DNA of 64,000 nt from positions 182,207 through 246,206 of the forward strand of contig JACPAE010000001.1 of the NCBI GenBank assembly GCA_016181005.1. Reading direction: 5' to 3'. The translations under genes and the position numbers were made by a program. Position 1 is the stretch's first letter. Every line of letters begins with the position of its first letter. Of this stretch, positions 30,440-35,810 are shown one piece after another. Source of the DNA: Candidatus Aenigmatarchaeota archaeon (GTDB lineage: Archaea > Aenigmatarchaeota > Aenigmatarchaeia > CG10238-14 > SCSR01). The notes under the pieces are model-generated. The model was not told where the DNA came from. It made no database searches and saw nothing but the letters and a program-made list of their open reading frames with translations.

Positions 30440-31558
30440 TTACTCTTCGCTTCTCACTATAAGGTCAAACATTCCAGTTCCTGCCGGCACAATCTGCCCC
30501 ACCATGACATTCTCAAAGATTCCCTGCAAGTTGTCAATCTCGTTCCTTATCGAAGCCTTGACAAGATGCTTTATCGTCTCCTCGAAGGCAGCCCGAGCAA
30601 GAATAGAAGTCTTCGCTCCTGCAACACCATAGCGCCCTATAGAATCAACAGCGCCGCTAAATGTCATAATGTCGGCAACAAGAGTAACATACCTGACATC
30701 CACGTCAAGCGCCTGCTCCTGCATTGTCTTCAAAGCCTCCCTTATTATGACGCTCCTTGCGGCTTCTATGCCTAGCACAGATTCTATCTCATAAATGTCA
30801 TTTGTGAACGTTTTCTTCTCATCGACTTCCTTTATTTTCAGCACATCGCTCAAATTAGTTCCTATAGTGTTTATTATCCAGTCATCCTCCTCTTTTCTAA
30901 CAAGAGCGTTTTTAATCCCTTTAACTCCCGTAACAGACAGCATCAGAATCTTTTCTTTCAGCTTCTGCAGCTCCTTAACGTCATCAGTCTTCGCTATAAC
31001 TGAAATCTTATCCTCCCTAGACCTGACATTCACGTTCTTCACAGACTCTTTGATAATCCTTTGCATCACATCAACCCTTCTCTTGTCGGAGACTTCAATT
31101 TCTATCGCGTTCTCGTTCAAGTTCAGCGAGATCCGATTAATGAGATTCATAACCTTCTTTTCTATAACAAATTCCGCAAGTTTAGCGGCCTCGGTCGCAT
31201 TGTTGCTTTCTCTCTTCAAATATATGGTCATCATGGGAGTCTCGGGCGTCTTTTTGGCATCGAAAATTTCTATTAGCCTAGGCAGGCCATAAGTAACTCT
31301 TATCCCGGCTGTTCCTGCAAAGTGATAAGTACGCATCGTCATCTGTGTAGCTGGTTCAGAAATGCTTTGGGCAGCAATTATTCCTATTCCCTCGGCCGGT
31401 TCAAATCTGCCTTGAAGATAAACTTTCTTGACTTCTTCAAGCAGCTTCTGCTTCTTCTCCGCATTCAGTCTCATTTCCTTCCCGACATTCTCCACTTCTT
31501 CCAGCAATTTACTAGGCAAGTTGTCTTCATGCGAATTTGTCTGCGATTTCTCTGACAT
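30440..31558 (-). CDS. rpoA2: RNA polymerase subunit A''
   Basis: 372 aa, C-terminal part of the largest subunit. FEPAEGIGIIAAQSISEPATQMTMRTYHFAG begins the trigger-loop/bridge region, and VTYGLPRLIEIFDAKKTP, YVTLVADIMTFSGAVDSIGRYG and AILARAAFEETIKHL-type segments follow. Its start overlaps the stop of the fused B'-A' gene by 32 nt, so the split between A' and A'' is the standard archaeal one. Confidence 0.97.
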   Translation of the reverse strand: MSEKSQTNSHEDNLPSKLLEEVENVGKEMRLNAEKKQKLLEEVKKVYLQGRFEPAEGIGIIAAQSISEPATQMTMRTYHFAGTAGIRVTYGLPRLIEIFDAKKTPETPMMTIYLKRESNNATEAAKLAEFVIEKKVMNLINRISLNLNENAIEIEVSDKRRVDVMQRIIKESVKNVNVRSREDKISVIAKTDDVKELQKLKEKILMLSVTGVKGIKNALVRKEEDDWIINTIGTNLSDVLKIKEVDEKKTFTNDIYEIESVLGIEAARSVIIREALKTMQEQALDVDVRYVTLVADIMTFSGAVDSIGRYGVAGAKTSILARAAFEETIKHLVKASIRNEIDNLQGIFENVMVGQIVPAGTGMFDLIVRSEE

Positions 31559-34500: not shown

Positions 34501-35810
34501 CTAAGTTCATTCTCCGGCGTCGGGCTGAACGCAGACGCATTCACGTACTTGCCAGTAAGCGCAGCCACCTTGCCTGCGATAATCTCCAGCAACTGCCCCA
34601 TAGTCATTCTTGACGGAATGCCGTGGGGATTGAAAATTATGTCCGGCACAATACCGCTTTCTGTGAACGGCATGTCTTCAGACGGAACAACAAGGGCGAT
34701 TACACCTTTCTGGCCGTGCCTTGACGCAAGCTTGTCGCCGATTTCAGGAACCTTCATGTCCCTAACAGCAACTTTAATCAGCTTTGTGCCGTCAGTAGTG
34801 TCGGTTATGAAAACCCTGTCAACAACTCCATGGTCGCCATGCCTAAGCCTTAAAGAAGTTTCGCGTATGTTCTCCAGGCCTGTGACAAACTTGTCCATGG
34901 TACCCAAGAACCTAAGCGGCGACACCCTCCCGATTATCACCTGATCCGATTCCAAAATTGTTTCCGGATTCGATATCCCGTCTTCCGGCAGATGCTTGTA
35001 TGAGTCCTCGCCAGCATAACCTCTGACGCCGGCCTCAGGTATCGCTATTATGTCCTCCTGGCCTCCAAGATACCTTTTTTGCTCCGCTTCATAAGACCTG
35101 TACATGTAGGACCACAGAACACCTTTCTGCAAAGAGCCTGCATTTATGACTATGCTGTCTTCCATGTTGTACCCATCAAAGGACGCCACTGCAATTATCA
35201 GATTGTTTCCGTTCGGATGGGTATTGTAAGGGATGACATCGTATGCATGGGTCTGCACCAAGGGCCTTTGAGGGTAAATCATCACGTTCGACTTGGTGTC
35301 GACTCTGGAAAGGAAATTCGTGGCAAAAATTCCAATGGACTGCCCGACCATTTTAGCCCCGTAGTTGACCCTGTCCCCCCTGTTGAATTCTGGGAACGGA
35401 ATGAAAGATGCAGAGAAACCCAAAATTACTGCTGGATCCATTTCAATATGAGTGTGGTCCGGCGTAAGCTCGTTCTCATCAAGTGCAATCAAAGAGTTTT
35501 CCTCCTCCTCGCTGTCAAGATACTCAACAACGCCGGTCTTCACCAATTCACTCCAGTTAATCTCACCTTTCTTCAATTTCTCCACTAGCTCTTTCGTCAA
35601 TTTCGGGACTCCCCTCTCGACAACAATCAACGGCCTTCTCACTCTTCCGGATTCCGACAGAATTCTGACTTCGTCCAAATTCCGGTGGTAAACTACATTT
35701 ACTTCATAGGGTATAACCCCGGCCCTTCTCTTTTCCCTGATATCTCTAACAAGCTTTTCCGGATCTGCCGTGTCGCCAACAAACTTGCCGTCAAAAAATA
35801 TCGTGCTCAT
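31527..35810 (-). CDS. rpoB1-rpoA1: Fused RNA polymerase subunits B' and A'
   Basis: One continuous frame of 1427 aa. Residues 1 to about 599 are B': [44 protein letters not shown], a zinc ribbon (CICTLCGL...CPIHG), and [12 protein letters not shown], which is where B' normally ends. After a short linker ([12 protein letters not shown]), residue 600 starts A': [63 protein letters not shown], and the catalytic [12 protein letters not shown]. No stop or frameshift lies at the junction (near 34011-34013). Neighbours are the normal B'' upstream and A'' downstream. The polymerase would have B' and A' covalently joined, similar in principle to the bacterial rpoB-rpoC fusions. Confidence 0.95.
   Translation of the reverse strand: [1427 protein letters not shown]

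Follow-up and report, generated by a model that had tools for sequence, protein, structure and literature searches.

In the genome of Candidatus Aenigmatarchaeota archaeon (739,890 bases in 5 contigs), the genes for the RNA polymerase (RNAP) subunits B' and A' are joined into one uninterrupted reading frame. Because the same join is found in related genomes, it is most likely a real and structurally harmless rearrangement and not a sequencing error. We assign a probability of about 0.87 to the reading that this is an indel-born fusion, whose product would be made as one chain with the ordinary archaeal core fold, and that fusion at this site is recurrent, close to neutral and structurally preadapted. 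The window analysed here is a stretch of 64,000 nucleotides that contains the fused gene and the operon around it.

The fused gene and its operon

As originally predicted, B' continues without a stop codon into A', and both halves of the resulting 1427-aa frame score above the cut-offs of their archaeal equivalog families (Table 1). The catalytic motif NADFDGD, said to be intact in the same prediction, is indeed present in the A' part of the translation. The B' and A' moieties are 80% and 81% identical, respectively, to the separate B' and A' genes of a congener (G003). The B' portion comprises 599 codons ahead of the retained A' start codon, the fused gene and rpoA'' overlap by 32 nt, and the gene order (rpoH, B'', B'-A', A'', L30e, NusA-like, S12, S7) follows the usual archaeal layout. 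The gene would be translated as one chain that folds as an ordinary archaeal catalytic core with RNAP activity.

Table 1. Features of the fused gene and its surroundings (window coordinates)
Feature	Position	Strand	Evidence
Fused rpoB'-rpoA' gene, 1427 aa	31527..35810	-	Single stop-free ORF, ATG start
B' moiety, residues 1-599	34014..35810	-	NCBIfam TIGR03670 (rpoB_arch) at residues 4-597, 862.4 bits, cut-off 811
A' moiety, retained start codon M600 to stop	31527..34013	-	NCBIfam TIGR02390 (RNA_pol_rpoA1) at residues 601-1420, 1124.2 bits, cut-off 1042.55
Junction linker, residues 593-606, between YPK and F607	33993..34034	-	14 residues
Site of the A' Shine-Dalgarno in split relatives, lost in the window	34008..34037	-	Anti-SD duplex energy
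rpoB'', 491 aa, separate upstream gene	35815..37290	-	NF007175, 525 bits, cut-off 355
rpoH, 76 aa	37295..37525	-	NF007129, 102 bits, cut-off 83
rpoA'', 372 aa, separate	30440..31558	-	TIGR02389, 401 bits, slightly below cut-off 420.65
L30e, NusA-like, S12, S7 (remainder of the canonical archaeal operon)	28271..29994	-	NCBIfam matches

The linker and the clamp

The linker had been put at 12 residues; a linker of about this size is present, and its exact length varies with the counting points, reaching 14 residues when YPK and the conserved F607 are taken as its bounds. Counted by hand, the distance from the B' P-K/R to the A' phenylalanine is 12-16 residues in all 23 fused genes. The closest structural parallel is man-made. 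PDB entry 3qqc, solved with Spt4/5, holds the P. furiosus clamp as a single chain, in which the B C terminus leads into the A' N terminus through a linker of the same 14 residues, and it aligns across the junction without gaps. It differs from the natural fusion in being an engineered clamp fragment, to which part of A'' has been added, and falls short of a complete polymerase; a review (PMC3382729) describes the X-ray structure of such a recombinant fragment from P. furiosus together with Spt4/5.

A model of how the B' C-terminus meets the A' N-terminus had been proposed as a check, and in the predicted clamp the junction forms a tight turn. An earlier prediction of residues 400-1010 was poor (pTM 0.35), and a clamp fragment (pTM 0.77) was used in its place. 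In this fragment, strands at residues 589-596 and 601-609 flank a turn at 597-600, with pLDDT blocks of about 90. The top match of the fragment is again 3qqc (Foldseek E 2e-34, TMq 0.80; VIA Z 34.6, rmsd 2.7, 333 residues, model 7-366). According to the model, the distance between the termini in the fold is short enough to be spanned by the linker, and the gap-free alignment together with the predicted turn indicates that the join would demand no structural change; this structural case combines a prediction with the solved structure of an engineered homologue, not of the fused protein. Thus, the B' C-terminal and A' N-terminal strands may adjoin in the clamp and be closed by the linker into a beta turn, the outcome being a covalently closed clamp base and a 1:1 supply of B' and A'.

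Distribution of the fusion among archaea

Further cases were sought by measuring the open frame that encloses PF04560, the C-terminal domain of B, and then reading the junction DNA, with frame length as the key: approx. 600 aa for a separate B', 1100 for a single B, 1430 for B'-A' and 1920 for B-A'. PF04560 was matched in 143 of 156 Aenigmatarchaeota genomes; one genome with an inconsistent frame at the junction (G082) was excluded. The comparison with close relatives that had been suggested gave a two-sided answer, i.e., the four congeners are all split, but the fusion occurs in 21 of the 124 Aenigmatarchaeota genomes with an assignable junction. The idea that it is unique to the window genome is therefore rejected by the phylum survey. 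One further case (G159, 1426 aa) was found among 31 genomes of a Nanohaloarchaeota-type sample. By contrast, six other archaeal phylum samples gave no fusion in approx. 520 readable genomes: Methanobacteriota-type (0/129), Thermococcus-type (0/61), Altiarchaeota-type (0/26), Micrarchaeota-type (0/19), Nanoarchaeota-type (none among the 150 matches listed) and Asgard (none, setting aside one probably misbinned genome). It should be noted that the phylum names of these samples are inferred from the titles of the central loci, and that the survey covered these phyla and not Halobacteriota, Thermoplasmatota and Thermoproteota.

The Asgard exception is a genome titled Heimdallarchaeota (G162), which was rejected as an Asgard fusion: the encoded protein clusters within family f6 of the Aenigmatarchaeota, with 89% identity to G033, and the fused contig (L072, JAEOTG010000167.1) is probably misbinned and was excluded from the Asgard count. 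Another fused contig (L147, G125) also looks misbinned, as the f32 genome holds a second, split copy of B'. A long Asgard B frame (G649, L162) was likewise discarded as an A' fusion, since a separate A' lies downstream. The Asgard B frames of 1620-1651 aa (G649, G664, G630, G771), which resemble fusions by their length, are approx. 500 aa longer than usual and possibly contain an intein or a large insert.

Several other arrangements were observed. In two of the 21 fused Aenigmatarchaeota genomes (G058 and G060; L144 and L145), whole B is joined to A' in open frames of 1930 and 1920 aa, respectively, and a separate A'' follows in both; the domains of G058 were verified by family models, and of all layouts in the survey this one comes closest to the bacterial form. 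Among the genomes of family f12 that were inspected (L015, L016, L165, L166, L171, L188, L191), no A' was detected downstream of B' within the approx. 1.5-2 kb covered where the contig allowed, and the RNAP operon seems to be rearranged in this lineage. Gaps of approx. 270-610 nt separate the B stop from A' homology in L021, L149, L156, L157, L160, L180 and L183, mostly in family f7 and its neighbours, and perhaps contain small inserted ORFs.

A tree built on the concatenated B and A' sequences, with 146 rows and 995 columns, requires 14 changes between the fused and split states, 11 of which are forced by well-supported branches alone. A careful tree of the window's own families requires 6 changes (bootstrap 5-95% range 6-6). 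Thus, the fusion is recurrent and not an isolated case, with at least 11 state changes. The window genome (G000) falls in a clade with 99/97 support whose remaining three members are split, and several fused clades span two to four species. Because split genes predominate and also occur in the outgroups used, most of the changes are probably gains of fusion, the direction of single changes being unproven.

It is reasonable to ask whether so many changes reflect selection. A fusion positively selected in small-genome archaea, for its effect on stoichiometry, assembly speed or clamp stability, could account for the concentration of changes in one phylum and a neighbour, their absence from the six other samples and the persistence of several fused clades across species. 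However, the genes abut or overlap with variable spacing and frame, so that fusion by chance is already likely, and sister species are still split. We consider selection possible but doubtful; it concerns the cause of the fusion, not its existence. A broader version of the idea, to which we give similarly little credence, is that the Aenigmatarchaeota B-A' boundary switches repeatedly between one and two chains, up to full B-A', with the one-chain form favoured in reduced genomes; if true, it would imply a one-chain advantage, for instance a fixed 1:1 ratio of the two parts at synthesis and assembly of the catalytic core during translation. On the near-neutral reading that we prefer, permissive termini and reading frames in Aenigmatarchaeota would let the fusion arise often and persist.

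Loss of the internal Shine-Dalgarno signal

Split relatives carry a Shine-Dalgarno (SD) sequence for A' at the end of B' (GGTGA, GGAGG, GAGGTG). Using the 16S 3' end of the window genome as the source of the anti-SD (GGATCACCTCCT), the duplex energy at this site is -3.3 kcal/mol in the window vs. -7.4 to -9.3 kcal/mol in the four congeners. The same difference holds in the wider sample: over 30 nt at the YPK anchor, the mean energy is -3.4 kcal/mol in fused genes (n=23) and -7.5 kcal/mol in split genes (n=101), with a Mann-Whitney p of 2.5e-10 (not corrected for kinship) and a median sign-test p of 0.004 for phylogenetically independent pairs. One fused gene (G007) still has GGTGA. This comparison is a simple duplex energy, and the loss could partly follow from altered linker codons. 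After fusion, an internal ribosome-binding site that is no longer needed would be expected to decay.

These energies bear on the suggestion that the fused frame is real, yet a separate A' is made, either through a second translation start at M600 or because the linker is cut. The A' start ATG is retained, so that weak internal initiation is conceivable, and some other fused genes also keep a methionine near the junction. However, the SD is weak at M600 and has generally been lost from fused genes, many other fused linkers have no methionine at the junction, and the linker is predicted to be a short structured turn, i.e., a poor protease site. Production of a separate A' is thus improbable, and synthesis of a single chain remains the preferred reading.

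Origin of the junction and the question of error

The junction DNA reads GAG AAC CTG ATG AAG (34022-34008, minus strand) and occurs once in the window; the assembled frame-continuous junction sequence is AACCTGATG. In the split congeners, B' and A' abut or overlap with A' in another frame, and the junctions are of the ATGA type (n=2), the TAATG type (n=1) or fully separated (TAA-TATG-ATG, n=1). Measured from the YPK codon, the A' ATG is 17, 20, 20 and 25 nt away in the congeners and 21 nt away in the window, a distance that places it in frame with B'. The original prediction had suggested that the fusion could have come from an ancestral TGATG stop/start overlap by a single-base change. This route fails on two counts: TGATG is absent from the junctions of all four congeners, and such an overlap would set the ATG in a different frame from B', which an indel can correct but a substitution cannot. 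Instead, the congener sequences suggest that an indel of net +1 (mod 3) separates the window from them, e.g., +4 if the ATGA junction of the congeners is taken as the starting point or +1 from a hypothetical TGATG. Such an indel, restoring the frame where the B' stop abuts the A' start, may have joined the neighbouring operon genes. In 97 of 110 split junctions, fewer than 60 nt separate the B stop from the onset of A' homology, and all three phases occur among these (43, 32 and 22), which makes a frame-restoring indel an easy step.

A small false indel might produce a continuous frame from genes that are in fact separate, like those of the congeners. The four congeners all have two genes here, and removal of one C would yield a typical stop/start overlap. 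Moreover, the fusion in the window is shared by none of the congeners and comes from one assembly in which other genes are damaged (uS11, endonuclease III, the proteasome beta subunit and ThrRS). The window genome assembly is indeed imperfect. Compared with G003, it has 12 frame-breaking differences over 661 matched ORFs (447 kb, one direction), while the reverse direction gives 8 besides RNAP and its antisense shadow. Eight of the 12 breaks span 20-143 nt, comprising tandem duplications of 23 and 26 nt and deletions of 20-143 nt. In the ThrRS gene (window 46857-48465, minus strand), approx. 86 nt have been lost out of frame relative to G003, with the change near 48200-48205, probably by assembly error. 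Two genes elsewhere in the genome are broken by exact tandem duplications, of 23 nt in uS11 (L252, about 12609-12655) and of 26 nt in endonuclease III (L258, about 18666-18718); such duplications are nearly absent in G003, which suggests unmerged assembly overlaps. The proteasome beta gene (L260, 82-617) lacks approx. 112 nt out of frame relative to G003.

Despite this damage, the error rate of the relevant kind is low. With eight breaks of at least 20 nt, just four of 1-2 nt are left in 447 kb, i.e., approx. 1e-5 per base or approx. 2e-4 for a 20-nt junction, against approx. 0.045 real changes expected on the window branch (14 changes/total length 35.2 x 0.11). The stronger argument is that a false indel would leave the SD intact, and at the window junction it is gone. 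The same fusion also occurs in many other assemblies. The frame-break rate and the loss of the SD make sequencing error unlikely as the source of the fusion, and we would give a split gene pair hidden by a false indel only a very slim chance. The original claim of a natural fusion and not an artefact is thus borne out by fused relatives in independent assemblies, a conserved linker length and loss of the internal SD.

Relation to known fusions

One-chain beta-beta' subunits arising from rpoB-rpoC fusion occur in Helicobacter and Wolbachia (PMC6403173), confirming the precedent cited with the original prediction. As in these bacteria, the C terminus of the second-largest subunit is joined to the N terminus of the largest at the homologous place, within an operon in which both genes normally abut. 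Unlike in bacteria, the subunits are archaeal, only the B' half and the A' part are joined while B'' and A'' stay separate, and about a dozen changes lie within one phylum. Acquisition of a bacterial rpoBC-type gene, for which these fusions would be the source, can be dismissed as next to impossible on the family scores, since both halves are archaeal equivalogs, the scores against two models of the bacterial fusion, PRK14844 and PRK09603 (approx. 326 bits), fall far below the respective cut-offs (4632 and 5372), and the tree sets the fused gene among split congeners. By sequence comparison, therefore, the B'-A' fusion appears to be the archaeal counterpart of the rpoB-rpoC fusion, which it matches in position but from which it arose independently.

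Archaeal RNAP large-subunit genes are known to fuse and split: the largest subunit is a single A'-A'' chain in Thaumarchaeota and Korarchaeota, with a secondary fusion in Pacearchaeota (PMC5484517). The present case concerns a different junction, which switches state at least 11 times, whereas RNAP subunit splits and fusions are regarded as rare events (PMC5484517). Aenigmatarchaeota also has both the split B''/B' and the single B, and the split state of B is independent of the B-A' junction, as shown by the two genomes with whole B joined to A'. The original prediction knew of no established archaeal B'-A' example; our search of the open-access literature yielded no publication that describes a B-A' fusion occurring naturally in archaea, but most subscription journals and preprints lay outside its scope, so that absence is unproven.

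Implications

RNAP subunit splits and fusions have been used as rare markers to root the archaeal tree (PMC5484517). A single junction with at least 11 state changes, nearly all within a single phylum, weakens such rooting markers. At the same time, the fusion is a natural instance of a chain topology that had been built artificially in structural work on the archaeal clamp, and the recurrent junction provides a natural replicate experiment on the fusion of essential multi-subunit machines.
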